DNA of 64,000 bases from positions 62,001 through 126,000 of the forward strand of contig NW_024882937.1 of NCBI RefSeq assembly GCF_019059575.1, written 5' to 3'. This document shows, piece after piece, positions 6,375-64,000 of this stretch. The position numbers and the translations under genes were made by a program. The notes beneath the pieces were generated by a model, which did no database searches, had not been told where the DNA came from, and saw only the letters and a program-made list of their open reading frames with translations. Source of the DNA: Amphibalanus amphitrite (Eukaryota; Arthropoda; Thecostraca; Balanomorpha; Balanidae). Each line of letters starts with the position of its first letter. Position 1 is the first letter of the stretch.

Positions 6375-6464
<90 letters not shown>

Positions 6465-7199: not shown

Positions 7200-7249
7200 A
7201 CCAGCATCTGCGATGCTGGGCTCCGCATCGCGGGACCGCAGGTTGTTTG
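7200..7249. repeat. H: palindromic 5' terminus of a unit with subterminal inverted repeat
   Basis: This first copy abuts unique DNA and so marks the 5' end of the unit. It holds the stem CCAGCATC-TGC-GATGCTGG, an alternative overlapping stem GCGATGC...GCATCGC, and ACCGCAGGTTGTTTG at 7235-7249, which is complementary to the unit's 3' terminus. Further copies begin near 10179, 12951, 16027, 18859, 21704, 25982, 32752, 46691, 52827, 57102 and 61379. The copies at 23866, 28143, 54988 and 59263 lack the first 8 or so bases. Confidence 0.85.
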
Positions 7250-7464
7250 AGCAAGCACCTTTGAAAACGCAGCAAAAACGCCCGCCGCCAAACGAGAGGA
7301 TGAGCCTTGCACGTGCAGACCGGAGTCGGTGTGCTATCTTGAAGCGACCCCTACACGTGCGCACGTGCAGCTGCACCCCAACCGTGGCACATGAAAATAC
7401 ATAGGCCCGGGCAGCGCTTATCGAACAGCACTGCGGATCCGAAGGTTGGGACTTTAATTGTGAA

Positions 7465-8190
7465 AAACCGACCGACCGCCGCAAAACGCAAAACCACAAA
7501 ACGCGCAAAACGCACGCCCAACACGCCAACGCAAACTTCGCAAAAAAATCAAAGAAACAATCGTCCGCCCGCGGCAAAAAAAAAAACGCAAAAAACGCCG
7601 CAAAAATGCGCGTCCGCGCAAAACCGCAAAACGCACGCCCAAAACGCTAACGCAGACCTCGCAAAAAAACAATCGCCCGCCCGCCGAAAATCGCAGAAAA
7701 AAGCAAAAAAAAAAACGCCGCAAAAAAACGCCCGTCCGCCGCAAAACGCAAACATCGCCGCCGCCGCAAAAAAAACCGCGTCGCCCGCCGCCAACCGCGC
7801 AACGCCGCAAATAAACGGCCGCCCGCCGCAAACAGCAACACCGCAAATAACGGTCGGCCGCCGGCAACCGCAAAACGCCGCAAAAAACGGCCGGCCGCCG
7901 GCAACCGCAAATCGCCGCAAAAAACGGCCGGCCGCCGCCCGCCGCAAACCGCCGCAAGAAACGGCCGCCCGCAGCCAAACGCAAACACCGCAAAAACGCA
8001 AATACCGCCGCAAAAAAAAACGCCCGCATCGCACGCCCGCACGCCGCCAACCGCAAAACGCCGCAAAAAACGTCCGCCCGCCGCGAAACGAACACCACAA
8101 AAAACGCAAAATCGGCCGCCCGCCGACAAACGCAAACACCGAAAAAAACGCAAACACTGCCGCAAAAAACGCATGCCGTCCGTTAAACGT
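7465..8190. repeat. T-depleted, CpG-rich low-complexity segment
   Basis: The + strand is made of CGCAAAA, CGCCGCAAAAAACG and CGGCCGCC words with very few thymines. A roughly 35-40-bp tandem motif (CGGCCGGCCGCCGGCAACCG and neighbours) is clear at about 7850-7930. Because every stop codon and every reverse-complement stop needs a T or A in specific combinations with T, frames on both strands stay open for hundreds of bases. The 299-codon Lys/Arg/Pro/Ala-rich + frame (7391-8290) and the Cys/Phe/Arg-rich minus frames are therefore expected by composition and are not called as genes. Confidence 0.85.
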
Positions 8191-10080
8191 AAACACTGAC
8201 GCATTAAGACAAATATGGCGCCTTGCGGCAAGTAAGGTGCATTCATATCTGCCGTTTAAGCAGCCATCCCTCAATCAAAGCGCATCCTAATCGTCCCATG
8301 TTCGATAAAGTTAGGCACATTCTGTGATTTGCGGCAAAAATGGCGCTTTGAGACAAACGTGGCGCACTGCGACAAACGTGGCGCATTCGTTCCTGTCGCT
8401 TAACAATTTTATCCACCCACCAAAATCTAGCCCAATTGGACTTAAACTGACAAAGTTATGTTCATTTGAATATTTCACGATAAAATATCTCCGCAACGGA
8501 GGTGCCCAAATTTGCACGTGTGCCACGTGACCGCCGGTGGTGTAAGCAGGACTTGTCCCCTCACTGATTGCACCATTTCAGTGTTCCTGGCTTGTGCTGT
8601 TTCCGTGCTATAAGGCCACAAATCGGCAAACACACGATAATCTGGGAGGTACGCGACTCAAACACGTGGCCACGTGGCACGTGCCGGACCTCTGATAGCT
8701 TCACCGTTCACGCCACGTGATGACCCATCGACGTGGCCATCAGCATGTAAAAGATGACCCCGGCCGGTGTCACCGTCTCTGAACAGTGGACGGCTAAGCT
8801 CGAAAAACGGGAAAATTTAGGGAAATTTCACCTTTCGAATATATAACTTCCCCATAATTTTAAATTTTTCATTTTACAAAAAATCCGAGATAGCAGTTTT
8901 TTAGACCCCTTCATTCTGTGCCTAAACCCGTTTTCAGATCGACCCTATCATAAAAACTGACGGCCTGACGGCTATTTCCCCCACTCCTTGCATTTCACAA
9001 TGCTAGTATATTTAAGCACCAAAATTGACCCCGTGCCACGGCACGTGCAATAGCACGTGCGACACGTGACCACTAGTGCGACAAGCTGGACTCATCTGCT
9101 CACCGGCTGCACTGATTTGGTGTCGCTAGTTGAAGTCGTTTCCACGCCAGAGGACCCCGAGTAGGCCAATGTCGGATTTTCCCGGAGGTTACCCCATCAA
9201 ACACGTTTGCACGTGGCACGTGCTTTTCAATCGCCCCATATCTGACCCATACCATGTGGTAGCCGACACCCTGGGGCACAACATATTGGAACATTTTCAA
9301 AATCTAACGTGGAAATTTTTGACAAAATCGATTTGAAAATAATTTTTCGAAATCGCCATAGGCTCAACATGGGGTAACTGTTCGTGACGATTACCCGAAA
9401 TTTTGTCAATTATATTTTAAATAATTACCAACGTCAGTTGGGGTGCCAGCCCGAGATCCGACCCTAAAAATATCAGCAAATATAATTGACGAAATTTTTC
9501 GCAAATCGAATTTTTAATTTTACCCCATGTTAACCCTATGGGAAAATGCACGTGCCGATTACCCCAAAACAACGAATTCTGACATCTTAACGAAGGATAA
9601 CAACATGTTCTATGGTCGTTTCTCAACAGGTCCTGAAAGTTTAAACAAAATCGTATCATATAATTTTGTGCAATGAACGAAAGAAAATGTCTCTGCAAAA
9701 ACGTCCATTGACTTAGCATGGGGAGCAAAAAAACTTCAACTTCAAACTCGTGCAACTCAAGTTAACGAATTCTGACGGGTATACGGCGCACACGGACGTG
9801 TACCTGAACGTGTCGGTCATAAAATGGTGTGCAGCAAACCATACCTTGATCGGCGATTTTTTCCGCTATTCGCGATCGCGCAAAAAGTGTCCAAAACCCC
9901 ATTGACTTAACATGGGCGAAAATTGAAACGCACGTGCCACGTGCCACGAGGTTTTAAGCGAGTAGCGACCGGTGCCAACAGGTAGATCGCCTGCGGGAGC
10001 CCATACCCTGAAATTTTTACGAAAATCGAGCCACAAGTTTAGGCCCCTACCAAGTTGCCCCAATTCGCGGCCAGACATGC

Positions 10081-10178
10081 AAAACATAGCCCGGAGAAGG
10101 ACCGCTCCGGTTGTTTTTCAATAGAAAAACACAATTCTAACGAATAGTGTTTGTCAATGAAGAAACAACCTGCGGTTA
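10081..10178. repeat. J: hairpin-rich 3' terminus of a unit (A-type variant)
   Basis: The first J copy contains the stem CCGGAG/CTCCGG, then the 8-bp stem TGTTTTTC-AATA-GAAAAACA, and ends GAAACAACCTGCGGTTA. The A-type variant has GTCAATGAAGAAACAACC before the end; the B-type variant has GTCTTTTCAAACAACC. J is the most constant part of the array, and the base after GGTTA is where units differ most. Confidence 0.9.
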
Positions 10179-10298
10179 CCAGCATCTGCGATGCTGGGCT
10201 CCGCATCGCGGGACCGCAGGTTGTTTGAGCAAGCACCTCTGTAACGCCGCTAAAGGTGTGCCGAATTTGAATGCAATCAGCCCAGCCGTTTCTGAGAT

Positions 10299-10945
10299 CT
10301 GAAAGCCTCACCCTGCACGTGCGCACGTGCAAGCTGGGTCCCAAATGACTTGTGGACGGCACCCTAGTTGCCGGTCTCTAGCGGTGTACCGAATTTAAGC
10401 TCAATCGGCCCAGCCGTTTTCAAGATCTGGAAGCGACCCATACACGTGCGCACGTGCAGTTGCACCCCAACCGAGACACATGAGTATACATACTAACTGA
10501 CTTGTGCACAGCACCCTACTAACCGGTCTCTAAAGGTGTGCCGAATTTGAATGCAATCGGCCCAGCCGTTCCTGAGATCTGGAAGCGTCACCCTGCACGT
10601 GCGCACGTGCAACCTGGGGCCCAGCAGACCTGTGCAAGACACCCTACTACGCGATCTCTAGCGGTGTGCCAAATCTGAGCACAAATGGCCCGGCCGTTCT
10701 CGAGATCTGGAAGCGTCACCCTGCACGTGCGCACGTGCAGTTGCACCCCAATCGTGGCACATGGAAATACATACTAAATGACTGCAACCTACTGATCGGT
10801 ATCAAGCGTTATGCCAAATTTGAACACAATCGGTCCAGCCGTTCTCGAGATCTGGAAGCGTCACCCTGCACGTGCGCACGTGCAGTTGCACCCCTACCAA
10901 GACACATGGAAATGCATCGCCTGGAAAGTGTCTACCTCCATGCCA
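10299..10945. repeat. Subrepeat block of about 127/150-bp units with an 18-bp CACGTG palindrome
   Basis: Five consecutive copies have palindrome centres near 10322, 10450, 10602, 10730 and 10875, so spacing alternates between about 127 and 145-153 bp. The longer form has an extra tail of the TTGCACCCCAACCG...ACATACTAA type. Each copy reads roughly: CGGTCTCTAGCGGTGTGCC, AAATTTGAGC, AATCGGCCCAGCCGTT, GAGATCTGGAAGCG, then TGCACGTGCGCACGTGCA, which is a perfect palindrome. Similar blocks follow H in every B and C unit. Confidence 0.9.
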
Positions 10946-11261
10946 AGTTTTAGCGCAATCGGCCCAGTAATTACCGCGAGCTATTGCGCTTATTACAAAA
11001 CAGGCACCTCTTGGCTTTGCACGTGGAACGTGCGTTAGGGGTCACCCATATGCATCGAGAGTAGCACACTATGTGAAAGAAGGGAAAAAGCTACCCCACA
11101 CCATAAACCGCACGTGTATCAGCCCAGTGGTTGCCGAGATATAAGTCGTACAAAAACGTCCCCACGGCGGCCGGCCGCTATTTAGCAGTAAAATCGTGTC
11201 GCATCCTTCTATGGGAGGTATCCCCGTCACCTGTTCGTATACTGTCTGAGCAAAGGCCATA

Positions 11262-12058
11262 CGTTACGGTCCAAACTCCATAGGTGAGGCGGACATACGA
11301 ATTTACGAGAGTTTAGCGACGAAATGATTCACTTAATTGTTAAGTAATGGGTACCATTAGGTAGACCATAAATTTTATCTAGCATCTCACCGTAGATGCA
11401 GTAAAAAGTGCTTTACTTTTCAATGTATATAAAGACTTGCTCAGCTCAATCAGTTCACTCTGTATTGGCTCAAGCCGTATCATGCGAACGCAATACAAAC
11501 TAGAGCACCGACAGCGCAGCGCTCCCCAACTCACTGCTCGCCCAGTCCACCCGGGCCGCCGCCACGACGGCCCCCCGCAAGTAGGCATCCCGCACTGCAC
11601 CGACAGCCGCGGGCGACCAGCTGACCGGCCAGCTGACCGGCCAGCAGCCGGCGGGCGGCAAGCCGCGGATGGCCGACCCGCCGGCGCGGCGAGGGAGGGG
11701 AGGGACGCAGCTGAAAGACCCGACTACATATATATCAAAGAAACATTATATGTAATCATCGATGACGCGACATAAATCTGCTTTATTGGGGTTAGCGGTG
11801 TAGTCTGTGATGCCATCACAATGAAAATAGCCTAGTTTTGTAGAGCATCAAATTCTGATTCCATAACGACTCTCGCTAGTCCATTTTCAATTGTAAATAA
11901 GCCTTTTATTGCGATGCAAAGTCCCGAAATGGTGCCGACGGCGGCCGGTCCCCCGATGGTACCATACCATAGATGGTAAACAGGTTAGTTCACATTCCCG
12001 CCGCTATGCGGGCGGCGGCGGCGCCACCTGTCCTCGTGTCCGCCTGACACCGTAACGA
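11262..12058. mobile_element. TIR-bounded module specific to B units (fossil DNA transposon/MITE-like)
   Basis: The module starts CGTTACGGT and ends ACCGTAACG(A), a 9-bp terminal inverted repeat. A second inverted match, GAGGCGGACA on the left and TGTCCGCCTGA on the right, lies just inside. C12 and C14 lack the module and read CCATATATAGG at its place, while B units read CCATA[module]TATAGG. It contains a TATA-like site, a GC-rich block with CAGCTGACCGGC repeats, a variable poly-C and a CCCGC/GCGGG stem. Other copies: 14141-15185, 17210-18016, 19897-20695, 31102-31911, 33790-34588, 36182-37765, 39573-40369, 42677-43486, 45097-45901, 62562-63370. I found no transposase. Confidence 0.75.
11426..11454 (+). 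promoter_or_regulatory. TATA box plus arthropod-type initiator-like site inside the B module
   Basis: TATATAAAG lies at 11426-11434 and TCAGT at 11450-11454, so the first T is about 26 bp before the initiator A, slightly shorter than the usual spacing. The same pair occurs in B2 (TATATAAAG from 14300), B4 (20060), B6 (33953), B7 (36334) and B8 (39737). In B3 (17373), B5 (31265), B10 (42839), B11 (45260) and B15 (62725) it reads TATGTAAAG; B3 and B15 also have TCACT in place of TCAGT. No downstream promoter element fits. A core promoter is plausible but unproven. Confidence 0.4.
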
Positions 12059-12897
12059 TATAGGTCTGAGCTCAAATCTCGGTAATGTCGTGCTTTTTTG
12101 CTATATTTCTCAAAAACGGCACCACGTGCAATAAAGTTGTATATATCATTGGAAAGAGCATCAAAAGTTGTATAAAATATCAACTTTTGACTTAAACATA
12201 TCTTTAACGTAAAAAGTTATAAAGCAGCAAAGACGCTCCCATTGACTTTGCATGTTAAAAAATTTCTTCTTTAAACGAGCTCAAAAAGAACAAACGAATT
12301 CTGACAGCTTAACGAAGCATAACAACATATTCTATGGTCTTTTCTCAACAAGTCCTGAAAGTTTAAACAAAATCGTATCATATAATTTTGTACAATGAGC
12401 GAATGAAAATGCCTCTGCAAAAACGCCCATTGACTTAACATGGGGAGCGAAAAAAGTTCAACTTCAAAGTCGTACTACAAAAAGTATCGACTTCTTACGG
12501 GTATACGACGCACAGGGGCGTGTACCTGAACGTGTCGGCCATAAAATGGTGTGCAGCAAACCATACCTTGACCTGCGATTTTTCCCGCTATTCGCGATCG
12601 CGCAAAAAGTGTCCAAAACCCCGTTGACTTAACATGGGGAAAATGGAATCGCACGTGCCACGTGCCACGAGGTTTTAAGCGAGTAGCGACCGGTGCCATC
12701 AGGTAGATCGCCCCCGAGAGCCCATACGCTGAACTTTTTACGAAAATCGCAATGCACGTTTAGGCCCCACCCAAAATGTCTCGATTCGCTGCCAGACTTG
12801 CAAAACATAGCCCGGAGAACGACCGCTCCGGTTGTTTTTCAATAGAAAAACACAATTCTAACGAATAGTGTTTGTCTTTTCAAACAACCTGCGGTTA

Positions 12898-12950
12898 TAG
12901 CCCGGAGAAGGACCGCTCCGGTTGTTTTTCAATAGAAAAACACAATTCTA
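12898..12950. repeat. Extra truncated J copy (tandem J duplication)
   Basis: Directly after the complete J of B1, the J sequence restarts at TAGCCCGGAG and stops at CACAATTCTA, where H of the next unit begins (ACCAGCATCTG). It is a partial second 3' terminus with no body. Confidence 0.9.
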
Positions 12951-15900
12951 ACCAGCATCTGCGATGCTGGGCTCCGCATCGCGGGACCGCAGGTTGTTTG
13001 AGCAAGCACCTTTGTAAACGCAGCAAAAACGCCCGCCGCCAAACGAGAGGATGAGCCTTGCACGTGTAGACCGGAGTCGGTGTGCTACAAACTGACGTGC
13101 ACGGCACCCTACTCGCTGATCTATAGCGGTGTGCCAAATTTGAGTGTAATCGGCTCGGCCATTTTCGAGATCTGGAAGCGTCACCCTGCACGTGCGCACG
13201 TGCAAGCTGTGTCCAATTGCATTGTGCATGGGACCCTATTCGCCGGTCTCTAGCGGTGTACCAAATTCGAGCTCAATCGGCCCAGCCGTTTTCAAGATCT
13301 TGAAACGACCCCTCCACGTGCGCACGTGCAGTTGCATCTCAACCGTGACACATGGAAACACATACTAACTGACTTGTGCACGGCACCCTACTGATCGATC
13401 TCTAGATGTTTGCCGAATTTGAGTGCAATCGGTCCAGCCGTTCTTGAGATCTGGAAGCGTCACCCTGCACGTGCGCACGTGCAAGATGGGTCCAAACTGA
13501 CTTGCGCACGGCAGTCGGCACCCTACTAATCGGTCTCTAGCGGTGTACCAAATTTGAACTCAATCGGCCCGGCCGTTCTCGAGATCTGGAAGCGTCACCC
13601 TGCACGTGCGCACGTGCAGTTGCACCCCAATCGTGGCACATGGAAATACATACTAAATGACTGCAACCTACTGATCGGTATCAAGCGTTATGCCAAATTT
13701 GAACACAATCGGTCCAGCCGTTCTCGAGATCTGGAAGCGTCACCCTGCACGTGCGCACGTGCAGTTGCACCCCTACCAAGACACATGGAAATGCATCGCC
13801 TGGAAAGTGTCTACCTCCATGCCAAGTTTTAGCGCAATCGGCCCAGTAATTACCGCGAGCTATTGCGCTTATTACAAAACAGGCACCTCTTGGCTTTGCA
13901 CGTGGAACGTGCGTTAGGGGTCACCCATATGCATCGAGAGTAGCACACTATGTGAAAGAAGGGAAAAAGCTACCCCACACAAAAAACCGCACGTGTATCA
14001 GCCCAGTGGTTGCCGAGATATAAGTCGTACAAAAACGTCCCCACGGCGGCCGGCCGCTATTTAGCAGTAAAATCGTGTCGCATCCTTCTATGGGAGGTAT
14101 CCCCGTCACCTGTTCGTATACTGTCTGAGCAAAGGCCATACGTTACGGTCCAAACTCCATAGTGAGGCGGACATACGAATTTACGAGAGTTTAGCGACGA
14201 AATGATTCACTTAATTGTTAAGTAATGGGTACCATTAGACCATAAATTTTATCTAGCATCTCACCGTAGATGCAGTAAAAAGTGCTTTACTTTTCAATGT
14301 ATATAAAGACTTGCTCAGCTCAATCAGTTCACTCTGTATTGGCTCAAGCCGTATCATGCGAACGCAATACAAACTAGAGCACCGACAGCGCAGCGCTCCC
14401 CAACTCACTGCTCGCCCAGTCCACCCGGGCCGCCGCCACGACGGCCCCCCGCAAGTAGGCATCCCGCACTGCACCGACAGCCGCGGGCGACCAGCTGACC
14501 GGCCAGCTGACCGGCCAGCAGCCGGCGGGCGGCAAGCCGCGGATGGCCGACCCGCCGGCGCGGCGAGGGAGGGGAGGGACGCAGCTGAAAGACCCGACTA
14601 CATATATATCAAAGAAACATTATATGTAATCATCGATGACGCGACATAAATCTGCTTTATTGGGTTTAGCGGTGTAGTCTGTGATGCCATCACAATGAAA
14701 ATAGCCTAGTTTTGTAGAGCATCAAATTCTGATTCCATAACGACTCTCGCTAGTCCATTTTCAATTGTAAATAAGCCTTTTATTGCGATGCAAAGTCCCG
14801 AAATGGTGCCGACGGCGGCCGGTCCCCCGATGGTACCATACCATAGATCAGAGGGCTGTTCACGGGCCCTGTGTGCGGTCGGACCGCACATAGCCTCCAA
14901 GCTCCGCCCACTGCGTCCCTACGTCAGCCTTCCGTCACCGCACACAGCGATCGCTGTGGCCGGTCGGGACTGGCCACAGCGGACCGTCCACCGCACGCAG
15001 CCGTGACGTCAGAACCGCCTACCCATCCCCTACCCCCACGCCTGCTGGACGCACCGCACACAGCGCACGCAGCAGTGTGCGGTGCCCGTGAACACCCCTC
15101 TGGTAAACAGGTTAGTTCACATTCCCGCCGCTATGCGGGCGGCGGCGGCGCCACCTGTCCTCGTGTCCGCCTGACACCGTAACGATATAGGTCTGAGCTC
15201 AAATCTCGGTAATGTCGTGCTTTTTTACTATATTTCTCAAAAACGGCACCACGTGCAATAAAGTTGTATATATCATTGGAAAGAGCATCAAAAGTTGTAT
15301 AACCTATCAACTTTTCACTTAAATATATCTCAACTGTAAAAAGTTATTAAGCAGCAAAGACGCTCCCATTCACTTTCCATGTTAAAATTTTTCATTTTTA
15401 AACGAGCCTAAAAAGAACAAACGAATTTGCACAGCTTAAAGAAGCATAACAACATGTTCTATGGTCTTTTCTCAACAAGTCCTGAAAGTTTAAACAAAAT
15501 CGTATCATATAATTTTGTACAATGAGCGAATGAAAAAGTCTCTGCAAAAACGCCCATTGACTTAACATGGGGAGCGAAAAAAGTTCAACTTTGACCTCGT
15601 GCAAAGACACGTTACGAAGTTCTGAGGGGTATACGGCGCACACTAGCGTGTACCCAAACGTGTTTGCCATAAAATGCTGGGATGAAAACCACCCCTTCCT
15701 TGGCTCGTTTTCCCGCTATTCGCGATTGCGCAAAAAGTGTCCCAAACCCCCATTGACTTACTATGGGAAAAATGGAATCGCACGTGCCACGTGCCACGAG
15801 GTTTTAAGCGAGTAGCGACCGGTGCCATCAGGTAGATCGCCTCCGGGAGCCCATACACTGAACTTTTTACGAAAATCGCAATGCACGTTTAGGCCCCGGT

Positions 15901-16026
15901 CAAGTTGCCCCAATTCGCGGCCAGACTTGCAAAACATAGCCCGGAGAAGGACCGCTCCGGTTGTTTTTCAATAGAAAAACACAATTCTAACGAATAGTGT
16001 TTGTCTTTTCAAACAACCTGCGGTTA
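12951..16026. repeat. Unit B2 (3076 bp, carrying a 254-bp insertion)
   Basis: H is followed by more subrepeats than in B1 (from about 13090 to 13820), including a local GGCAGTCGGCACC duplication near 13515. It then has the B module with six C, and J at 15931-16026. Its 3' part from about 15.1 kb matches B11 at an offset of 30716. Confidence 0.9.
14849..15102. mobile_element. 254-bp palindrome-rich TIR element inserted in B2 only
   Basis: Ends CAGAGGGCTGTTCACGGGC and GCCCGTGAACACCCCTCTG form a 19-bp terminal inverted repeat with one mismatch. Inside are the near-perfect palindrome TGTGCGGTCGGACCGCACA and the hairpin CTGTGGCC...GGCCACAG. All other B units read ATAGAT(GG)TAAACAGG without it. 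I see no clear target-site duplication, so the superfamily is open; the CAGAGG end is hAT-like but the expected 8-bp duplication is missing. Confidence 0.85.
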
Positions 16027-18858
16027 CCAGCATCTGCGATGCTGGGCTCCGCATCGCGGGACCGCAGGTTGTTTGAGCAAGCACCTTTGTAAACGCAGCA
16101 AAAACGCCCGCCGCCAAACGAGAGGATGAGCCTTGCACGTGCAGACCGGAGTCGGTGTGTTACAAACTGACGTGCACGGCACCCTACTCGCTGATCTATA
16201 GCGGTGTGCCAAATTTGAGTGTAATCGGCTCGGCCATTTTCGAGATCTGGAAGCGTCACCCTGCACGTGCGCACGTGCAAGCTGTGTCCAATTGCATTGT
16301 GCATGGGACCCTATTCGCCGGTCCCTAGCGGTGTACCAAATTCGAGCTCAATCGGCCCAGCCGTTTTCAAGATCTTGAAACGACCCCTCCACGTGCGCAC
16401 GTGCAGTTGCATCTCAACCGTGACACATGGAAATACATACTAACTGACTTGTGCACGGCACCCTACTGATCGATCTCTAGATGTTTGCCGAATTTGAGTG
16501 CAATCGGTCCAGCCGTTCTTGAGATCTGGAAGCGTCACCCTGCACGTGCGCACGTGCAAGATGGGTCCAAACTGACTTGCGCACGGCACCCTACTAATCG
16601 GTCTCTAGCGGTGTACCAAATTTGAACTCAATCGGCCCGGCCGTTCTCGAGATCTGGAAGCGTCACCCTGCACGTGCGCACGTGCAGTTGCACCCCAATC
16701 GTGGCACATGGAAATACATACTAAATGACTGCAACCTACTGATCGGTATCAAGCGTTATGCCAAATTTGAACACAATCGGTCCAGCCGTTCTCGAGATCT
16801 GGAAGCGTCACCCTGCACGTGCGCACGTGCAGTTGCACCCCTACCAAGACACATGGAAATGCATCGCCTGGAAAGTGTCTACCTCCATGCCAAGTTTTAG
16901 CGCAATCGGCCCAGTAATTACCGCGAGCTATTGCGCTTATTACAAAACAGGCACCTCTTGGCTTTGCACGTGGAACGTGCGTTAGGGGTCACCCATATGC
17001 ATCGAGAGTAGCACACTATGTGAAAGAAGGGAAAAAGCTACCCCACACAAAAAAACCGCACGTGTATCAGCCCAGTGGTTGCCGAGATATAAGTCGTACA
17101 AAAACGTCCCCACGGCGGCCGGCCGCTATTTAGCAGTAAAATCGTGTCGCATCCTTCTATTAGAGGTATCCCCGTCACCTGTTCGTATACTGTCTGAGCA
17201 AAGGCCATACGTTACGGTCCAAACTCCATAGTGAGGCGGACATACGAATTTACGAGAGTTTAGCGACGAAATGATTCACTTAATTGTTAAGTAATGGGTA
17301 CCATTAGGTAGACCATAAATTTTATCTAGCATCTCACCGTAGATGCAGTAAAAAGTGCTTTACTTTTCAATGTATGTAAAGACTTGCTCAGCTCAATCAC
17401 TTCACTCTGTATTGGCTCAAGCCGTATCATGCGAACGCAATACAAACTAGAGCACCGACAGCGCAGCGCTCCCCAACTCACTGCTCGCCCAGTCCACCCG
17501 GGCCGCCGCCACGACGGCCCCCCCCCCCCCCCGCAAGTAGGCATCCCGCACTGCACCGACAGCCGCGGGCGACCAGCTGACCGGCCAGCTGACCGGCCAG
17601 CAGCCGGCGGGCGGCAAGCCACGGATGGCCGACCCGCCGGCGCGGCGAGGGAGGGGAGGGACGCAGCTGAAAGACCCGACTACATATATATCAAAGAATG
17701 ATACATTATATGTAATCATCGATGACGCGACATAAATCTGCTTTATTGGGTTTAGCGGTGTAGTCTGTGATGCCATCACAATGAAAATAGCCTAGTTTTG
17801 TAGAGCATCAAATTCTGATTCCATAACGACTCTCGCTAGTCCATTTTCAATTGTAAATAAGCCTTTTATTGCGATGCAAAGTCCCGAAATGGTGCCGACG
17901 GCGGCCGGTCCCCCGATGGTACCATACCATAGATGTAAACAGGTTAGTTCACATTCCCGCCGCTATGCGGGCGGCGGCGGCGCCACCTGTCCTCGTGTCC
18001 GCCTGACACCGTAACGATATAGGTCTGAGCTCAAATCTCGGTAATGTCGTGCTTTTTTACTATATTTCTCAAAAACGGCACCACGTGCAATAAAGTTGTA
18101 TATATCATTGGAAAGAGCATCAAAAGTTGTATAACCTATCAACTTTTCACATAAATATATCTCAACTGTAAAAAGTTATTAAGCAGCAAAGACGCTCCCA
18201 TTCACTTTCCATGTTAAAATTTTTCATTTTTGAACGAGCCTAAAAAGAACAAACGAATTTGCACAGCTTAAAGAAGCATAATCACATGTTCTATGGTCTT
18301 TTCTCAACAAGTCCTGAAAGTTTAAACAAAATCGTATCATATAATTTTGTACAATGAGCGAATGAAAAAGTCTCTGCAAAAACGCCCATTGACTTAACAT
18401 GGGGAGCGAAAAAAGTTCAAATTTGACCTCGTGCAAAGACACGTTACGAAGTTCTGAGGGGTATACGGCGCACACTAGCGTGTACCCAAACGTGTTTGCC
18501 ATAAAATGCTGGGAAGAAAACCACCTCTTCCTTGGCTCGTTTTCCCGCTATTCGCGATTGCGCAAAAAGTGTCCCAAACCCCCATTGACTTACTATGGGG
18601 AAAATGGAATCGCACGTGCCACGTGCCACGAGGTTTTAAGCGAGTAGCGACCGGTGCCAACAGGTAGATCGCCTGCGGGAGCCCATACACTGAAATTTTT
18701 AAGAAAATCGAGCCACAAGTTTAGGCCTGACCCAAGTTGCCCCAATTCGCGGCCAGACATGCAAAACATAGCCCGGAGAAGGACCGCTCCGGTTGTTTTT
18801 CAATAGAAAAACACAATTCTAACGAATAGTGTTTGTCTTTTCAAACAACCTGCGGTTA
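16027..18858. repeat. Unit B3 (2832 bp; long-C lineage)
   Basis: B type with a 15-C run at about 17518-17532, TATGTAAAG, CTATTAGAGG and AAGAATGATACATT, the markers of the long-C lineage. J is at 18763-18858. The unit reappears as B15 at the right end of the window (offset 45352-45353), including the H junction. Confidence 0.9.
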
Positions 18859-21535: not shown

Positions 21536-21704
21536 CAAAACATAGCCCGGAGAAGGACCGCTCCGGTTGTTTTTCAATAGAAAAACACAATTCTAACGAA
21601 TAGTGTTTGTCTTTTCAAACAACCTGCGGTTACAAGATCTTGAAACGACCCCTCCACGTGCGCACGTGCAGTTGCATCTCAACCGTGACACATGGAAATA
21701 CATA
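21536..21704. repeat. Second J copy plus a 72-bp subrepeat fragment
   Basis: A complete J is repeated at 21537-21632, then a piece of subrepeat (CAAGATCTTGAAACGACCCC to AAATACATA, 21633-21704), then a new H. It is a unit reduced to almost nothing between two termini. Confidence 0.9.
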
Positions 21705-52826: not shown

Positions 52827-54987
52827 CCAGCATCTGCGATGCTGGGCTCCGCATCGCGGGACCGCAGGTTGTTTGAGCAAGCACCTTTGAAAACGCAGCA
52901 AAAACGCCCGCCGCCAAACGAGGGGATGAGCCTTGCACGTGCACACGGGAGTCGGTGTGCTACAAACACTGCCGCAAAAAAACGCACGCCGTCCGTTAAA
53001 CTAAACACTGACGCATTAAGACAAATATGGCGCCTTGCGGCAAGTGTGGTGAATTCATATCTGCCGTTTAAGCAGCCATCCCTCAATCAAAGCGCATCCT
53101 AATCGTCCCATGTTCGATAAAGTTAGGCACATTCTGTGATTTGCGGCAAAAATGGCGCTTTGAGACAAACGTGGCGCACTGCAACAAACGTGGCGCATTC
53201 GTTCCTGTCGCTTAACAATTTTATCCACCCACTAAAATCTAGCCCAATTGGACTTAAACTGACAAAGTTATGTTTATTTCAATATTTCACTATAAAATAT
53301 CTCCGCAACGGAGGTGCACAAATTTGCACGTGTGCCACGTGACCGCCGGTGGTGTAAGCAGGACTTGTCCGCTCACTGATTGCACCATTTCAGTGTTCCT
53401 GGCTTGTGCTGTTTTCGTGCTATAAGGCCACAAATCGGCAAACACACGATAATCTGGGAGGTACGGGACTCAAACACGTGGCCACGTGGCACGTGCCGGA
53501 CCTCTGATAGCTTCACCGTTCACGCCACGTGATGACCCATCGACGTGGCCATCAGCATGTAAAAGATGACCCCGGCCGGTGTCACCGTCTCCGAACAGTG
53601 GACGGCTAAACTCGAAAAACGGGAAAATTTAGGGAAATTTCACCTTTCGAATATATAACTTCCCCAGAATTTTAAATTTTTCATTTTACAAAAAATCCGA
53701 GATAGCAGTTTTTTAGACGTCTTCATTCTGTGCCTAAACCCGTTTTCAGATCGACCCTATCATAAAAACTGACGGCCTGACGGCTATTTCCCCCACTCCT
53801 TGCATTTCACAATGCTAGTATATTTAAGCACCAAAATTGACCCCCTGCCACGGCACGTGCAATAGCACGTGCGACACGTGACCACTAGTGCGACAAGCTG
53901 GACTCATCTGCTCACCGGCTGCACTGATTTGGTGTCGCTAGTTGAAGTCGTTTCCACGCCAGAGGACCCCGAGTAGGCCAATGTCGGATTTTCCCGGAGG
54001 TTACCCCATCAAACACGTTTGCACGTGGCACGTGCTTTTCAATCGCCCCATATCTGACCCATACCATGTGGTAGCCGACACCCTGGGGCACAACATATTG
54101 GAACATTTTCAAAATCTAACGTGGAAATTTTTGACAAAATCGATTTGAAAATAATTTTTCGAAATCGCCATAGGCTCAACATGGGGTAACTGTTTGTGAC
54201 GATTACCCGAAATTTTGTCAATTATATTTTAAGTAGTTACCACCGTCAGTTGGGGTGCCAGCCCGAGATCCGACCCTAAAAATATCAGCAAATATAATTG
54301 ACGAAATTTTTCGCAAATCGCATTTTATTTTTTTCCCATGTTAACCCTATGGGAAAATGCACGTGCCGATTACCCCAAAACGGGCCATTATATTTCATAA
54401 CGAAGCATAACAACATGTTCTATGGTCGTTTCTCAACAGGTCCTGAAAGTTTAAACAAAATCGTATCATATAATTTTGTGCAATGAACGAATGAAAATGT
54501 CTCTGCAAAAACGTCCATTGACTTAGCATGGGGAGCAAAAAAAGTTCAACTTCAAACTCGTGCAACTCAAGTTAACGAATTCTGACGGGTATACGGCGCC
54601 CACGGGCGTGTACCTGAACGTGTCGGTCATAAAATGGGGTGCAGCAAACCCTACCTTGATCGGCGATTTTTTCCGCTATTCGCGATCGCGCAAAAAGTGT
54701 CCAAAACCCCGTTGACTTAACATGGGGAAAATGGAATCGCACGTGCCACGCGCAAAAGAATTCTGAGCGAGTAGCGACCGGTGCCATCAGGTAGATCGCC
54801 TGCGGGAGCTCATACCCTGAACTTTTTACGAAGATTGAGCGATTCGTTTAGGCCCCAATCAAGTTGTACTGATTCGCTGCCAACCATGCAAAACATAGCC
54901 CGGAGAAGGACCGCTCCGGTTGTTTTTCAATAGAAAAACACAATTCTAACGAATAGTGTTTGTCAATGAAGAAACAACCTGCGGTTA
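52827..54987. repeat. Unit A3 (2161 bp)
   Basis: Copy of A1 at an offset of about 31122. Unlike A1 it follows J directly with H. J is at 54890-54987. Confidence 0.9.
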
Positions 54988-57101
54988 TGCGATGCTGGGC
55001 TCCGCATCGCGGGACCGCAGGTTGTTTGAGCAAGCACCTTTGTAAACGCAGCAAAAACGCCCTCCGCCAAACGGGAGGATGAGCCTTGCACGTGCAGACC
55101 GGAGTCGGTGTGCTATCTTGAAGCGACCCCTACACGTGCGCACGTGCAGCTGCACCCCAACCGTGGCACATGAAAATACATAGGCCCGGGCAGCGCTTAT
55201 CGAACAGCACTGCGGATCCGAAGGTTGGGACTTTAATTGTGAAAACCGCTTTAATTGTGAAAAACGCGCTTTGAGACAAACGTGGCGCACTGCAACAAAC
55301 GTGGCGCATTCGTTCCTGTCGCTTAACAATTTTATCCACCCACCAAAGTCTAGCTCAATTGGACTTAAACTGACAAAGTTATGTTCATTTGAATATTTCA
55401 CTATAAAATATCTCCGCAACGGAGGTGCCCAAATTTGCACGTGTGCCACGTGACCGCCGGTGGTGTAAGCAGGACTTGTCCCCTCACTGATTGCACCATT
55501 TCAGTGTTTCTGGCTTGCGCTGTTTTCGTGCTATAAGGCCACAAATCGGCAAACACACGATAATCTGGGAGGTACGCGACTCAAACACGTGGCCACGTGG
55601 CACGTGCCGGACCTTTGATAGCTTCACCGTTCACGCCACGTGATGACCCATCGACGTGGCCATCAGCATGTAAAAGATGACCCCGGCCGGTGTCACCGTC
55701 TCTGAACAGTGGACGGCTAAACTCGAAAAACGGGAAAATTTAGGGAAATTTCACCTTTCAAATATATAATTTCCCCAGAATTTTAAATTTTTCATTTAAA
55801 AAAAAATCCGAGATAGCAGTTTTTTAGCCCCCTTCATTCTGTGCCTAAACCCGTTTTCAGATCGACCCTATCATAAAAACTGACGGCCTGACGGCTCTTT
55901 CCCCCACTCCTTGCATTTCACAATGCTAGTATATTTAAGCACAAAAATTGACCCCGTGCCACGGCACGTGCAATAGCACGTGCGCCACGCGACCAGTGGT
56001 GCAACAAGCTGGACTCATCTGCTCATCGGCTGTACTGATTTGGTGTCGCTAGGTGGAGTGGTTTCCACGCCATAGGACCCCGAGTAGGCCAATGTCGGAT
56101 TTTCCCGGAGGTTACCCCATCAAACACGTTTGCACGTGGCACGTGCTTTTCAATCGCCCCATATCTGACCCATACCATGTGGTAGCCGACACCCCGGGGC
56201 ACAACATATTGGAACATTTTCAAAATCTAACGTGGAAATTTTTGACCAAATCGATTTGAAAATAATTTTTCGAAATCGCCATAGGCTCAACATGGGGTAA
56301 CTGTTTGTGACGATTACCCGAAATTTTGTCAATTATATTTTAAGTAATCACCACCGTCAGTTGGGGTGCTAGCCCGAGATCCGACCCTAAAAATATCAGC
56401 AAATATGATTGACGAAATTTTTCGCAAATCGAATTTCTAATTTTACCCCATGTTAACCCTATGGGAAAATGCACGTGCCGATTACCCCAAAACAACGAAT
56501 TCTGACATCTTAACGAAGCATAACAACATGTTCTATGGTCGTTTCTCAACAGGTCCTGAAAGTTTAAACAAAATCGTATCATATAATTTTGTGCAATGAA
56601 CGAATGAAAATGTCTCTGCAAAAACGTCCATAGACTTAACATGGGGAGCGAAAAAAGTTCAACTTCAAACTCGTGCAACTCAAGTTAACGAATTCTGACG
56701 GGTATACGGCGCACACGGGCGTGTACCTGAACGTGTCGGTCATGAAATGGTGTGCAGCAAACCATACCTTGATCGGCGATTTTTTCCGCTATTTGCGATC
56801 GCGCAAAAAGTGTCCAAAACCCCATTGACTTAACATGGGCGAAAATTGAAACGCACGTGCCACGTGCCACGAGGTTTTAAGCGAGTAGCGACCGGTGCCA
56901 TCAGGTAGATCGCCTGCGGGAGCCCATACCCTGAAATTTTTACGAAAATCGAGCCACAAGTTTAGGCCCCAATCAAGTTGCCCCAATTCGCGGCCAGCCA
57001 TGCTAAACATAGCCCGGAGAAGGACCGCTCCGGTTGTTTTTCAATAGAAAAACACAATTCTAACGAATAGTGTTTGTCAATGAAGAAACAACCTGCGGTT
57101 A
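54988..57101. repeat. Unit A'3 (2114 bp)
   Basis: Copy of A'1, two bases shorter in the A-run near 55798. J is at 57004-57101. Confidence 0.9.
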
Positions 57102-59262
57102 CCAGCATCTGCGATGCTGGGCTCCGCATCGCGGGACCGCAGGTTGTTTGAGCAAGCACCTTTGAAAACGCAGCAAAAACGCCCGCCGCCAAACGAGGGG
57201 ATGAGCCTTGCACGTGCACACGGGAGTCGGTGTGCTACAAACACTGCCGCAAAAAAACGCACGCCGTCCGTTAAACTAAACACTGACGCATTAAGACAAA
57301 TATGGCGCCTTGCGGCAAGTGTGGTGAATTCATATCTGCCGTTTAAGCAGCCATCCCTCAATCAAAGCGCATCCTAATCGTCCCATGTTCGATAAAGTTA
57401 GGCACATTCTGTGATTTGCGGCAAAAATGGCGCTTTGAGACAAACGTGGCGCACTGCAACAAACGTGGCGCATTCGTTCCTGTCGCTTAACAATTTTATC
57501 CACCCACTAAAATCTAGCCCAATTGGACTTAAACTGACAAAGTTATGTTTATTTCAATATTTCACTATAAAATATCTCCGCAACGGAGGTGCACAAATTT
57601 GCACGTGTGCCACGTGACCGCCGGTGGTGTAAGCAGGACTTGTCCGCTCACTGATTGCACCATTTCAGTGTTCCTGGCTTGTGCTGTTTTCGTGCTATAA
57701 GGCCACAAATCGGCAAACACACGATAATCTGGGAGGTACGGGACTCAAACACGTGGCCACGTGGCACGTGCCGGACCTCTGATAGCTTCACCGTTCACGC
57801 CACGTGATGACCCATCGACGTGGCCATCAGCATGTAAAAGATGACCCCGGCCGGTGTCACCGTCTCCGAACAGTGGACGGCTAAACTCGAAAAACGGGAA
57901 AATTTAGGGAAATTTCACCTTTCGAATATATAACTTCCCCAGAATTTTAAATTTTTCATTTTACAAAAAATCCGAGATAGCAGTTTTTTAGACGTCTTCA
58001 TTCTGTGCCTAAACCCGTTTTCAGATCGACCCTATCATAAAAACTGACGGCCTGACGGCTATTTCCCCCACTCCTTGCATTTCACAATGCTAGTATATTT
58101 AAGCACCAAAATTGACCCCCTGCCACGGCACGTGCAATAGCACGTGCGACACGTGACCACTAGTGCGACAAGCTGGACTCATCTGCTCACCGGCTGCACT
58201 GATTTGGTGTCGCTAGTTGAAGTCGTTTCCACGCCAGAGGACCCCGAGTAGGCCAATGTCGGATTTTCCCGGAGGTTACCCCATCAAACACGTTTGCACG
58301 TGGCACGTGCTTTTCAATCGCCCCATATCTGACCCATACCATGTGGTAGCCGACACCCTGGGGCACAACATATTGGAACATTTTCAAAATCTAACGTGGA
58401 AATTTTTGACAAAATCGATTTGAAAATAATTTTTCGAAATCGCCATAGGCTCAACATGGGGTAACTGTTTGTGACGATTACCCGAAATTTTGTCAATTAT
58501 ATTTTAAGTAGTTACCACCGTCAGTTGGGGTGCCAGCCCGAGATCCGACCCTAAAAATATCAGCAAATATAATTGACGAAATTTTTCGCAAATCGCATTT
58601 TATTTTTTTCCCATGTTAACCCTATGGGAAAATGCACGTGCCGATTACCCCAAAACGGGCCATTATATTTCATAACGAAGCATAACAACATGTTCTATGG
58701 TCGTTTCTCAACAGGTCCTGAAAGTTTAAACAAAATCGTATCATATAATTTTGTGCAATGAACGAATGAAAATGTCTCTGCAAAAACGTCCATTGACTTA
58801 GCATGGGGAGCAAAAAAAGTTCAACTTCAAACTCGTGCAACTCAAGTTAACGAATTCTGACGGGTATACGGCGCCCACGGGCGTGTACCTGAACGTGTCG
58901 GTCATAAAATGGGGTGCAGCAAACCCTACCTTGATCGGCGATTTTTTCCGCTATTCGCGATCGCGCAAAAAGTGTCCAAAACCCCGTTGACTTAACATGG
59001 GGAAAATGGAATCGCACGTGCCACGCGCAAAAGAATTCTGAGCGAGTAGCGACCGGTGCCATCAGGTAGATCGCCTGCGGGAGCTCATACCCTGAACTTT
59101 TTACGAAGATTGAGCGATTCGTTTAGGCCCCAATCAAGTTGTACTGATTCGCTGCCAACCATGCAAAACATAGCCCGGAGAAGGACCGCTCCGGTTGTTT
59201 TTCAATAGAAAAACACAATTCTAACGAATAGTGTTTGTCAATGAAGAAACAACCTGCGGTTA
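57102..59262. repeat. Unit A4 (2161 bp)
   Basis: Copy of A2 at an offset of 31120. J is at 59165-59262. Confidence 0.9.
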
Positions 59263-61378
59263 TGCGATGCTGGGCTCCGCATCGCGGGACCGCAGGTTGT
59301 TTGAGCAAGCACCTTTGTAAACGCAGCAAAAACGCCCTCCGCCAAACGGGAGGATGAGCCTTGCACGTGCAGACCGGAGTCGGTGTGCTATCTTGAAGCG
59401 ACCCCTACACGTGCGCACGTGCAGCTGCACCCCAACCGTGGCACATGAAAATACATAGGCCCGGGCAGCGCTTATCGAACAGCACTGCGGATCCGAAGGT
59501 TGGGACTTTAATTGTGAAAACCGCTTTAATTGTGAAAAACGCGCTTTGAGACAAACGTGGCGCACTGCAACAAACGTGGCGCATTCGTTCCTGTCGCTTA
59601 ACAATTTTATCCACCCACCAAAGTCTAGCTCAATTGGACTTAAACTGACAAAGTTATGTTCATTTGAATATTTCACTATAAAATATCTCCGCAACGGAGG
59701 TGCCCAAATTTGCACGTGTGCCACGTGACCGCCGGTGGTGTAAGCAGGACTTGTCCCCTCACTGATTGCACCATTTCAGTGTTTCTGGCTTGCGCTGTTT
59801 TCGTGCTATAAGGCCACAAATCGGCAAACACACGATAATCTGGGAGGTACGCGACTCAAACACGTGGCCACGTGGCACGTGCCGGACCTTTGATAGCTTC
59901 ACCGTTCACGCCACGTGATGACCCATCGACGTGGCCATCAGCATGTAAAAGATGACCCCGGCCGGTGTCACCGTCTCTGAACAGTGGACGGCTAAACTCG
60001 AAAAACGGGAAAATTTAGGGAAATTTCACCTTTCAAATATATAATTTCCCCAGAATTTTAAATTTTTCATTTAAAAAAAAAAATCCGAGATAGCAGTTTT
60101 TTAGCCCCCTTCATTCTGTGCCTAAACCCGTTTTCAGATCGACCCTATCATAAAAACTGACGGCCTGACGGCTCTTTCCCCCACTCCTTGCATTTCACAA
60201 TGCTAGTATATTTAAGCACAAAAATTGACCCCGTGCCACGGCACGTGCAATAGCACGTGCGCCACGCGACCAGTGGTGCAACAAGCTGGACTCATCTGCT
60301 CATCGGCTGTACTGATTTGGTGTCGCTAGGTGGAGTGGTTTCCACGCCATAGGACCCCGAGTAGGCCAATGTCGGATTTTCCCGGAGGTTACCCCATCAA
60401 ACACGTTTGCACGTGGCACGTGCTTTTCAATCGCCCCATATCTGACCCATACCATGTGGTAGCCGACACCCCGGGGCACAACATATTGGAACATTTTCAA
60501 AATCTAACGTGGAAATTTTTGACCAAATCGATTTGAAAATAATTTTTCGAAATCGCCATAGGCTCAACATGGGGTAACTGTTTGTGACGATTACCCGAAA
60601 TTTTGTCAATTATATTTTAAGTAATCACCACCGTCAGTTGGGGTGCTAGCCCGAGATCCGACCCTAAAAATATCAGCAAATATGATTGACGAAATTTTTC
60701 GCAAATCGAATTTCTAATTTTACCCCATGTTAACCCTATGGGAAAATGCACGTGCCGATTACCCCAAAACAACGAATTCTGACATCTTAACGAAGCATAA
60801 CAACATGTTCTATGGTCGTTTCTCAACAGGTCCTGAAAGTTTAAACAAAATCGTATCATATAATTTTGTGCAATGAACGAATGAAAATGTCTCTGCAAAA
60901 ACGTCCATAGACTTAACATGGGGAGCGAAAAAAGTTCAACTTCAAACTCGTGCAACTCAAGTTAACGAATTCTGACGGGTATACGGCGCACACGGGCGTG
61001 TACCTGAACGTGTCGGTCATGAAATGGTGTGCAGCAAACCATACCTTGATCGGCGATTTTTTCCGCTATTTGCGATCGCGCAAAAAGTGTCCAAAACCCC
61101 ATTGACTTAACATGGGCGAAAATTGAAACGCACGTGCCACGTGCCACGAGGTTTTAAGCGAGTAGCGACCGGTGCCATCAGGTAGATCGCCTGCGGGAGC
61201 CCATACCCTGAAATTTTTACGAAAATCGAGCCACAAGTTTAGGCCCCAATCAAGTTGCCCCAATTCGCGGCCAGCCATGCTAAACATAGCCCGGAGAAGG
61301 ACCGCTCCGGTTGTTTTTCAATAGAAAAACACAATTCTAACGAATAGTGTTTGTCAATGAAGAAACAACCTGCGGTTA
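59263..61378. repeat. Unit A'4 (2116 bp)
   Basis: Copy of A'2 at an offset of 31120. J is at 61281-61378 and is followed by a B unit with full H, whereas A'2 is followed by a truncated one. Confidence 0.9.
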
Positions 61379-64000
61379 CCAGCATCTGCGATGCTGGGCT
61401 CCGCATCGCGGGACCGCAGGTTGTTTGAGCAAGCACCTTTGTAAACGCAGCAAAAACGCCCGCCGCCAAACGAGAGGATGAGCCTTGCACGTGCAGACCG
61501 GAGTCGGTGTGTTACAAACTGACGTGCACGGCACCCTACTCGCTGATCTATAGCGGTGTGCCAAATTTGAGTGTAATCGGCTCGGCCATTTTCGAGATCT
61601 GGAAGCGTCACCCTGCACGTGCGCACGTGCAAGCTGTGTCCAATTGCATTGTGCATGGGACCCTATTCGCCGGTCCCTAGCGGTGTACCAAATTCGAGCT
61701 CAATCGGCCCAGCCGTTTTCAAGATCTTGAAACGACCCCTCCACGTGCGCACGTGCAGTTGCATCTCAACCGTGACACATGGAAATACATACTAACTGAC
61801 TTGTGCACGGCACCCTACTGATCGATCTCTAGATGTTTGCCGAATTTGAGTGCAATCGGTCCAGCCGTTCTTGAGATCTGGAAGCGTCACCCTGCACGTG
61901 CGCACGTGCAAGATGGGTCCAAACTGACTTGCGCACGGCACCCTACTAATCGGTCTCTAGCGGTGTACCAAATTTGAACTCAATCGGCCCGGCCGTTCTC
62001 GAGATCTGGAAGCGTCACCCTGCACGTGCGCACGTGCAGTTGCACCCCAATCGTGGCACATGGAAATACATACTAAATGACTGCAACCTACTGATCGGTA
62101 TCAAGCGTTATGCCAAATTTGAACACAATCGGTCCAGCCGTTCTCGAGATCTGGAAGCGTCACCCTGCACGTGCGCACGTGCAGTTGCACCCCTACCAAG
62201 ACACATGGAAATGCATCGCCTGGAAAGTGTCTACCTCCATGCCAAGTTTTAGCGCAATCGGCCCAGTAATTACCGCGAGCTATTGCGCTTATTACAAAAC
62301 AGGCACCTCTTGGCTTTGCACGTGGAACGTGCGTTAGGGGTCACCCATATGCATCGAGAGTAGCACACTATGTGAAAGAAGGGAAAAAGCTACCCCACAC
62401 AAAAAAACCGCACGTGTATCAGCCCAGTGGTTGCCGAGATATAAGTCGTACAAAAACGTCCCCACGGCGGCCGGCCGCTATTTAGCAGTAAAATCGTGTC
62501 GCATCCTTCTATTAGAGGTATCCCCGTCACCTGTTCGTATACTGTCTGAGCAAAGGCCATACGTTACGGTCCAAACTCCATAGTGAGGCGGACATACGAA
62601 TTTACGAGAGTTTAGCGACGAAATGATTCACTTAATTGTTAAGTAATGGGTACCATTAGGTAGACCATAAATTTTATCTAGCATCTCACCGTAGATGCAG
62701 TAAAAAGTGCTTTACTTTTCAATGTATGTAAAGACTTGCTCAGCTCAATCACTTCACTCTGTATTGGCTCAAGCCGTATCATGCGAACGCAATACAAACT
62801 AGAGCACCGACAGCGCAGCGCTCCCCAACTCACTGCTCGCCCAGTCCACCCGGGCCGCCGCCACGACGGCCCCCCCCCCCCCCCCGCAAGTAGGCATCCC
62901 GCACTGCACCGACAGCCGCGGGCGACCAGCTGACCGGCCAGCTGACCGGCCAGCAGCCGGCGGGCGGCAAGCCACGGATGGCCGACCCGCCGGCGCGGCG
63001 AGGGAGGGGAGGGACGCAGCTGAAAGACCCGACTACATATATATCAAAGAATGATACATTATATGTAATCATCGATGACGCGACATAAATCTGCTTTATT
63101 GGGTTTAGCGGTGTAGTCTGTGATGCCATCACAATGAAAATAGCCTAGTTTTGTAGAGCATCAAATTCTGATTCCATAACGACTCTCGCTAGTCCATTTT
63201 CAATTGTAAATAAGCCTTTTATTGCGATGCAAAGTCCCGAAATGGTGCCGACGGCGGCCGGTCCCCCGATGGTACCATACCATAGATGTAAACAGGTTAG
63301 TTCACATTCCCGCCGCTATGCGGGCGGCGGCGGCGCCACCTGTCCTCGTGTCCGCCTGACACCGTAACGATATAGGTCTGAGCTCAAATCTCGGTAATGT
63401 CGTGCTTTTTTACTATATTTCTCAAAAACGGCACCACGTGCAATAAAGTTGTATATATCATTGGAAAGAGCATCAAAAGTTGTATAACCTATCAACTTTT
63501 CACATAAATATATCTCAACTGTAAAAAGTTATTAAGCAGCAAAGACGCTCCCATTCACTTTCCATGTTAAAATTTTTCATTTTTGAACGAGCCTAAAAAG
63601 AACAAACGAATTTGCACAGCTTAAAGAAGCATAATCACATGTTCTATGGTCTTTTCTCAACAAGTCCTGAAAGTTTAAACAAAATCGTATCATATAATTT
63701 TGTACAATGAGCGAATGAAAAAGTCTCTGCAAAAACGCCCATTGACTTAACATGGGGAGCGAAAAAAGTTCAAATTTGACCTCGTGCAAAGACACGTTAC
63801 GAAGTTCTGAGGGGTATACGGCGCACACTAGCGTGTACCCAAACGTGTTTGCCATAAAATGCTGGGAAGAAAACCACCTCTTCCTTGGCTCGTTTTCCCG
63901 CTATTCGCGATTGCGCAAAAAGTGTCCCAAACCCCCATTGACTTACTATGGGGAAAATGGAATCGCACGTGCCACGTGCCACGAGGTTTTAAGCGAGTAG
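61379..64000. repeat. Unit B15, cut by the right window edge
   Basis: Copy of B3 from H onward (offset 45352-45353) with a 16-C run where B3 has 15. The window ends in the common 3' domain at GCGAGTAG, before J. The array therefore continues. Confidence 0.9.

Follow-up and report, generated by a model that had tools for sequence, protein, structure and literature searches.

Helentron-associated elements (HINEs), the Helitron Helraiser, the truncated Helitrons of plant centromeres and Fusarium Helitron2 are the closest described systems to the locus analysed here, a head-to-tail array of non-coding, Helentron-like rolling-circle elements in Amphibalanus amphitrite (NCBI RefSeq assembly GCF_019059575.1). 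The array lies in a stretch of 64,000 nucleotides (contig NW_024882937.1, positions 62,001 to 126,000 of the forward strand), to which we refer as the window. HINEs carry a pair of inverted repeats, one 2-4 nt from the 5' end and the other 38-60 bp from the 3' end, together with a 3' palindrome, and they occupy T-rich sites without target modification (PMC4067079). In the published mite HINEs, the second repeat lies 38-60 bp and the palindrome 8-35 bp from the end (PMC4067079). The array units share with HINEs the absence of coding sequence, the inverted repeats near the 5' end and inside the 3' end, the 3' palindrome, the internal tandem repeats and, at the one empty site of a sister family, insertion without target duplication (PMC4067079, PMC7492417). 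They differ in that the hairpin forms the very 3' terminus, in that the site is mostly TA rather than TT, and in that whole units lie in long arrays; the spacing of about 35 bp at their second repeat is also slightly different from the 38-60 bp of the mite elements.

With regard to Helraiser, the 5' end is essential, whereas the 3' end and its hairpin are dispensable, though activity drops (PMC4778049). Without the hairpin or the 3' end, truncated ends reading CTTG beside a T are formed with two-nucleotide target overlaps, and the intact element captures 3' flank in about 11.7% of events (PMC4778049). The likeness to the present array consists of a fixed 5' end, truncations that end in G next to T when hairpin recognition is lost, two-nucleotide overlaps and transduced 3' flank (PMC4778049). 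In contrast, Helraiser is a reconstructed canonical Helitron with TC..CTAG ends, it is known from experimental insertions of a bat element, and the accessible parts of its description contain no arrays (PMC4778049).

Tandem arrays of 3'-truncated Helitrons are already known from plants; the locus described here adds a counterpart from an animal, of Helentron type and with exceptionally well-defined junctions. Xiong, Dooner and Du reportedly described truncated Helitrons arrayed in plant centromeres in 2016, and the Helitrons concerned are of the canonical type. The centromeric copies lie head to tail with many 5' and few 3' ends, the inner copies being 3'-truncated (PMC12628747, PMC5148889). 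The same combination of many 5' ends, fewer 3' ends and 3'-truncated inner units was found here, but the ends are of the Helentron type (subterminal repeats, terminal hairpin, T/TA site), the genome is that of an animal, and the units belong to mixed subfamilies with dozens of different stops. Fusarium Helitron2 is comparable in its asymmetric terminal repeats, joined-end circles and occasional tandem copies, although the tandem cases are few and mainly solo copies were studied (PMC5148889). Among the titles and abstract openings searched, which leave most of the subscription literature aside, none described an animal Helentron array of this kind with mapped stops.

We consider it probable that the array consists of accumulated non-autonomous, Helentron-like (HINE-like) rolling-circle elements that stop inaccurately and use Helentron 5' ends as acceptors. 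A more specific version, in which a Helentron-type transposase builds a satellite by strand transfer, with its own and sister 5' termini as preferred acceptors and with cryptic G|TA stops, is put forward tentatively. The locus suggests that a jumping element can build a satellite through faulty stopping, without recourse to unequal crossing-over.

Helentron-like architecture of the array units

Throughout, element names and strands follow the Helentron orientation, 5' to 3', which is that of the minus strand of the window. J denotes the end with the motif GCGGTTA, and H denotes the opposite, hairpin-bearing end, at which a unit starts on the forward strand. The array runs from 7200 to the end of the window (7200..64000, minus strand) and comprises 27 pieces, of which 26 are complete (53 to 3177 bp) and one is cut by the window edge. 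A reverse-complemented unit starts with TAACCGCAGGTTGTTTGA and has the perfect 8-bp hairpin CCAGCATC-GCA-GATGCTGG at its other end; on the minus strand it reads T-AACCGCAGGTTGTTTGA ... TCAAACAACCTGCGG-TCCCGCGATGCGGAGC-CCAGCATC-GCA-GATGCTGG. The first inverted repeat lies 3 nt from the 5' end (TAA|CCGCAGGTTGTTTGA) and agrees with the near-5' repeat of 12-15 bp in HINEs; the second lies about 35 bp from the 3' end and is followed by the terminal hairpin, again as in HINEs. The exact 15-bp inverse pair claimed in an earlier note on this DNA is present in B-type units (CCGCAGGTTGTTTGA / TCAAACAACCTGCGG, e.g. 16062-16076 and 18841-18855), but the pair is 13 bp long in A-type units, in which J reads ..AATGAAGAAACAACCTGCGG. 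Single-strand folding predicts the perfect 8-bp hairpin at the extreme 3' end and another hairpin 20 nt inside the 5' end.

The match to HINEs holds only in the minus-strand orientation, and therefore the exact end is the 5' end and the variable end is the 3' end. The earlier note had regarded the units as copies of a mobile element with a fixed 3' end and 5' truncation, as in long interspersed nuclear elements (LINEs) or rolling-circle transposons. A mobile origin is supported by the Helentron/HINE-like structure and by the existence of solitary copies; the orientation, however, is the reverse, with fixed 5' and truncated 3' ends, and the comparison with LINEs consequently fails. The absence of a poly-A or simple tail, also reported there, holds at all 23 J ends. 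Open reading frames of at least 200 aa in the array are confined to one low-complexity stretch, 7391-8290, and an Rfam scan of the window at gathering scores gave no match. We treat membership of the HINEs as provisional, since no partner sharing the ends was seen in the samples read and TA is more usual than TT at the site.

The 23 J ends fall between 10178 and 61378, and in all of them GCGGTTA ends at the same terminal base; 22 show the exact 16-mer AAACAACCTGCGGTTA, and the one at 51035 reads AAACAGCC. J terminates 23 of the 26 complete pieces, and the other three (ends 12950, 21703, 46690) pass into an intact H start. The window has twelve such starts in all: eight follow J, and the others are at 7201 (host flank), 12952, 21705 and 46692. 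After J, the intact start reads CCAGCATC in six cases and CCGGCATC in two, and the remaining 15 of the 23 joins lead, with almost no homology, into truncated starts of nine kinds. TGCGATG (the start of the A' units, 8 nt shorter than the intact one) and CAAGATCTTG (21633, 30259, 41209, 41834) occur four times each, and the single starts are TAGCCCGG (12898), CAAAACATAG (21536), CAGCACCC (35429), AGATCTGAAAG (38606), CTAACTGAC (44327), GGACCGC (49231) and CCCGCCGCC (51036). The description of units that end at GCGGTTA and are followed by various starts is thus accurate, with nine truncated starts besides intact H; the joins at 12898 and 21536 had been missed. The units form two subfamilies with about 136 bp in common on the H side and about 610 bp on the J side, the middle being different.

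The 807.55-Mb assembly contains 3665 exact matches to the J 16-mer and 1336 to an H 29-mer, in both cases above chance (reversed-pattern controls, 0 for each), so 5' ends outnumber 3' ends genome-wide as they do in the window (23 J versus 12 intact H). At about 2.1 kb per piece, array-type DNA would amount, as a rough figure, to the order of 1% of the genome. Pieces in other arrays are as short as 18, 36, 45 and 74 bp. Solitary copies, which the earlier note had proposed to look for, were found. One full solitary element (L039, C1:81300-86299), situated 81 kb from a contig end, is embedded in a tract of (CCTAA)n, a TTAGG-type repeat and an arthropod-type telomere motif, and a complete list of a sister J variant holds 83 copies on 81 contigs, most of them single. 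At L095 and L103, about 20-31 bp of the 5' end are joined to an intact 3' end.

Intact 3' ends, truncation points and acceptors

The sampled loci from L009 onwards contain 36 distinct intact H starts, of which 12 follow J or a J-like end, joints to the J-like ends of another family being classed here, and 24 lie elsewhere. In all 24 rows of the latter group the next base is T, and in 20 the next two are TA; in window orientation, the preceding bases are TA in 20, AA in three and GA in one, equivalent to CTGG|T. These 24 rows represent 23 distinct flanks, because one locus (L088) holds one flank twice. A recount that allowed altered hairpin ends and included L001-L008 gave 30 starts that are not beside their own J, three of them beside the other family's end; 26 of the 30 are exact, and the remaining four carry an additional base ahead of TA. 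At tandem joints 8 of 14 ends are exact (p=0.051 against 26 of 30), and we claim no difference. At L021 and L079, the 3' hairpin ends found after J have 1-2 extra nt complementary to the opposite arm (CCCAGC, GCCCAGC), a pattern reminiscent of self-primed extension of the hairpin.

The same loci, overlapping ones included, contain 169 occurrences of J, which were reduced to 92 distinct junctions by counting identical first 18 nt after J once. Fifty of them are internal truncations, 11 lie at or near H, and 31 lead into host or unplaced sequence (a separate set of 76 distinct sequences includes 21 without internal context). The sequence shared at the 50 truncation joins is 0 nt in 24, 1 in 14, 2 in nine and 3 in three. 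In one-sided binomial tests on these 50 points, the next base is T in 26 (background 0.278, p=2.6e-4), the last base is G in 26 (0.263, p=9.8e-5), TA follows in 12 (0.05, p=5.5e-6), and G|T is found in 14 (0.069, p=4.7e-6). At 18 other offsets, which served as a control, the maximum counts were 6 for G|T and 3 for TA. The truncations thus favour G|T and N|TA and resemble both the intact end and failed Helraiser termination. That wrong stops tend to share the context of the right stop points to the enzyme itself and away from later recombination.

The intact H end was also found joined to the 5' terminus of a different family, ...CAAACCTTCGGTTA, at L094, L101 and L102, and at L086 with an extra C. 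This other Helentron-like family has a AATAGAAAAACACAATTCTAA block in common with the array units. Fillers between J and the next H measure 8 bp (L093), 12 bp (L098), 43 bp (L065) and 76 bp (L016). At L088, host flank has been carried past H, and on contig C13 two units are followed at their 3' ends by an identical 81-bp stretch of host sequence, which is the outcome expected from read-through. The other family just described, a sister family of the array units, is represented on C13 by an element (elem0) of 1529 bp as bounded, which has its own repeats CCGAAGGTTTG/CAAACCTTCGG and a hairpin and interrupts a host stretch. Its empty site, located between two neighbouring units, shows no duplication, the target being GACAAAA|TATGAACCC in Helentron orientation; the match extends over 15 bp on one side, beyond which the flanks diverge, and over 81 identical bp on the other. 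The comparison with empty sites suggested in the earlier note therefore yielded one site without target duplication, though it is that of the sister family, and the 13-bp duplication at L085 (see below) departs from it. No abutting duplication is present at L088 or L039, although the 5-bp repeat around L039 may mask one. Compared with the T-rich or TT, duplication-free sites of HINEs, the array elements show T and mostly TA; the sister element elem0 has one empty site without duplication, and L085 has the 13-bp duplication.

Proposed growth of the array and alternative explanations

According to the mechanism we propose, a Rep-type transposase supplied in trans would initiate at the J end, where the fixed 5' terminus is T|AACCGCAGG..., and copying would run toward the 3' hairpin. 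Where the hairpin is recognised, the copy would end in CTGG and be joined beside T(A); where it is missed, copying would stop before or beyond the proper end, at a cryptic N|T(A) and most readily at G|T, and would give 3'-truncated units or units with host 3' flank. The array would grow as Helentron 5' termini, which bear a TA and would be the sites nicked by the enzyme itself, are reused as acceptors for new copies, and later duplication would multiply blocks such as the A/A' dimers. The sequence itself shows the architecture, the exact 5' ends, the variable 3' ends with their bias to G|T and N|TA, the position of intact 3' ends at TA, the joints to the other family and the presence of Rep genes; we infer the acts of the enzyme, the role of resident 5' ends as acceptors in place of one concatemer, and the identity of the active Rep family. 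The conversion of a transposon into a satellite is usually deduced from old, blurred arrays, whereas here the joins are sharp and the 5' end is exact. If the more specific version, that of strand transfer with cryptic G|TA stops, is true, each wrong stop is recorded as one join, and such arrays would naturally preserve a very large number of independent terminations by a rolling-circle enzyme. As rolling-circle stopping and target choice are hard to study in cells, the 3665 exact 5' ends are potentially a large data set on the stops and accepted targets of a rolling-circle transposase.

The Rep domain PF14214 has 148 matches in the genome (160 candidates, 150 scored), with open frames of up to 1960 aa; 14 control genomes gave no match. 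On contig C2217, three Rep copies lie on one strand, 13.0 kb apart, and in the 10 kb between two of them stretches upstream of Rep are repeated two or three times. Two stretches match the internal repeat of the units at 76-77% identity and in the same orientation; this shared repeat is the only link of one Rep family to the units. The Rep-coding Helitron family is itself tandem there (L144, C2217:9000-18999), with an 18-bp-stem hairpin beside the inverted repeat ACGGCGCACCCCTG/CAGGGGTGCGCCGT. With regard to the autonomous relative sought in the earlier note, Rep genes are abundant, but none with both termini was seen in the samples read.

Several observations weigh against our interpretation. 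The samples read contain no Rep element with the same termini: neither J nor H was found in the 5' regions of four Rep families (a, b, c, d), in second copies of a and b, or in the sequence that separates the tandem Rep copies of C2217 and C64, and none of the 101 Rep places compared (of 148 rows, each split match and each group of close neighbours being represented once) has any of the 83 sister J copies within 120 kb. One solitary 300-bp piece with an intact 3' end, L085, is flanked by a 13-bp duplication, AAACGAGCTAATA, within a host tandem repeat. At L033, a truncated solitary copy, the truncated side overlaps by 4 bp (CTAG), and 5'-truncated solitary copies also exist (L085, L090, L091). 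Tandem duplications at L082 (C9:68600-69200) and L076 (C7:1980458-1982020) comprise 23-75 bp of the 5' end and 10-154 bp of host; such 5'-side host sequence is not predicted by plain initiation at the 5' end. The four foreign joints lie on four contigs with three distinct flanks (L101 = L102) and may come from fewer than four events. The empty site of elem0 shares no more than 15 bp on one side, and the bias tests are not independent of the discovery, as 45 of the 50 points had already brought the bias to light.

The alternative closest in kind to this interpretation is that of concatemers made in one run, in which a circular or nicked template is copied repeatedly, the 3' stop is missed and the ready chain is inserted. 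This is the model for plant centromeres, and it would account for the many 5' and fewer 3' ends, for the tandem Rep elements on C2217 and for the near-exact A/A' dimer repeats. However, adjacent units are barely more alike than shuffled ones (0.921 versus 0.908, P=0.083, for 20 units, the pieces ending at 21632, 41833 and 51035 being set aside), a result more in keeping with piece-by-piece growth or shuffling than with one recent concatemer. In addition, A- and B-type units are arranged in mixed blocks, consecutive truncation points are mostly different, and the joints of intact 3' ends to the other family's 5' end are impossible from one template. We therefore regard the concatemer model as unlikely.

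Ordinary satellite amplification, in which unequal exchange and replication slippage would act with J as a favoured break point and no transposase would take part in the joins, is very improbable. It is favoured by the block 21703-30266, which recurs at 52825-61387 with 99.95% identity, and by the stretches on C7 and C9, which are plain tandem duplications across the border of J and host. Nevertheless, a classical satellite has a uniform monomer and homology at its joins, whereas the pieces here range from 53 to 3177 bp and the 50 distinct truncation points share 0-3 nt. J moreover ends at the identical base throughout the window, and the truncation context resembles that of the intact end. 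The longer shared sequence that the earlier note had named as the sign of homologous unequal exchange is thus absent from the joins; we rejected unequal exchange as their origin and retained it for the A/A' block, the second copy of which is a later duplication.

Insertion of a LINE type, with J as the 3' end and 5' truncation by incomplete reverse transcription, is the least probable and was rejected as the main explanation: a fixed end with variable truncation, short overlaps at the joins and the duplication at L085 would suit it, but the A-rich or simple tail of LINEs and other non-long-terminal-repeat elements is lacking at the 23 J ends, their target duplications were not seen at L088 or L039 (L085 being an exception), no reverse transcriptase-like frame of at least 200 aa is present in the units, the ends carry a terminal hairpin and subterminal inverted repeats, the intact H end sits before T or TA, L088 carries host flank beyond H, and the empty site of elem0 has no duplication.

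Layout of the array and its surroundings

All the pieces lie on the minus strand. The edge unit, of A type (7200..10178), adjoins the host with its intact 3' hairpin end at CTGGTCGTA|CCAGC (CTGG|TACG in Helentron orientation). It is followed by a unit with both ends (10179..12897) and by an internal fragment of 53 bp (12898..12950) between the intact 3' end at 12952 and the next 5' end at 12897. The unit at 12951..16026 has both ends, its 3' end lying within older element sequence at G|TTAG. The reference B unit (16027..18858), also with both ends, has its 3' hairpin at 16027-16045 and its subterminal repeats at the positions given above. Both arms of the hairpin are changed in the next complete unit (18859..21535; CCGGCATC..GATGCCGG), which is followed by a 3'-truncated unit of 97 bp (21536..21632) and by an internal fragment of 71 bp (21633..21703) that leads into an intact 3' end.

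An A/A' dimer is then present twice (21704..30258; 2162+2116+2161+2116 bp), the A' units being without one hairpin arm, and this stretch is 99.95% identical to 52827-61378. A 3'-truncated unit starting with CAAGATCTTG (30259..32751) and a unit with both ends (32752..35428) precede four further 3'-truncated units: one starting with CAGCACCC and carrying extra internal sequence (35429..38605), one starting with AGATCTGAAAG (38606..41208), one of 625 bp with an internal deletion (41209..41833) and another one starting with CAAGATCTTG (41834..44326). The 3'-truncated unit at 44327..46690 is without a 5' end, and an intact 3' end is joined there at TTCAATAGA|CCAGC. Next are a unit with both ends (46691..49230), a 3'-truncated unit (GGACCGC, 49231..51035) cut directly after the 3' subterminal repeat, and another one starting with CCCGCCGCC (51036..52826). 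The second pair of A/A' dimers (52827..61378), near-identical to the first, is followed by a B unit that continues past the window (61379..64000).

Near the array, a minus-strand LINE-type open reading frame with an endonuclease part (Exo_endo_phos, E=2.9e-9) occupies positions 1-1590 and is open at the window edge. A TC dinucleotide tract of about 57 copies is located at 6375-6488.

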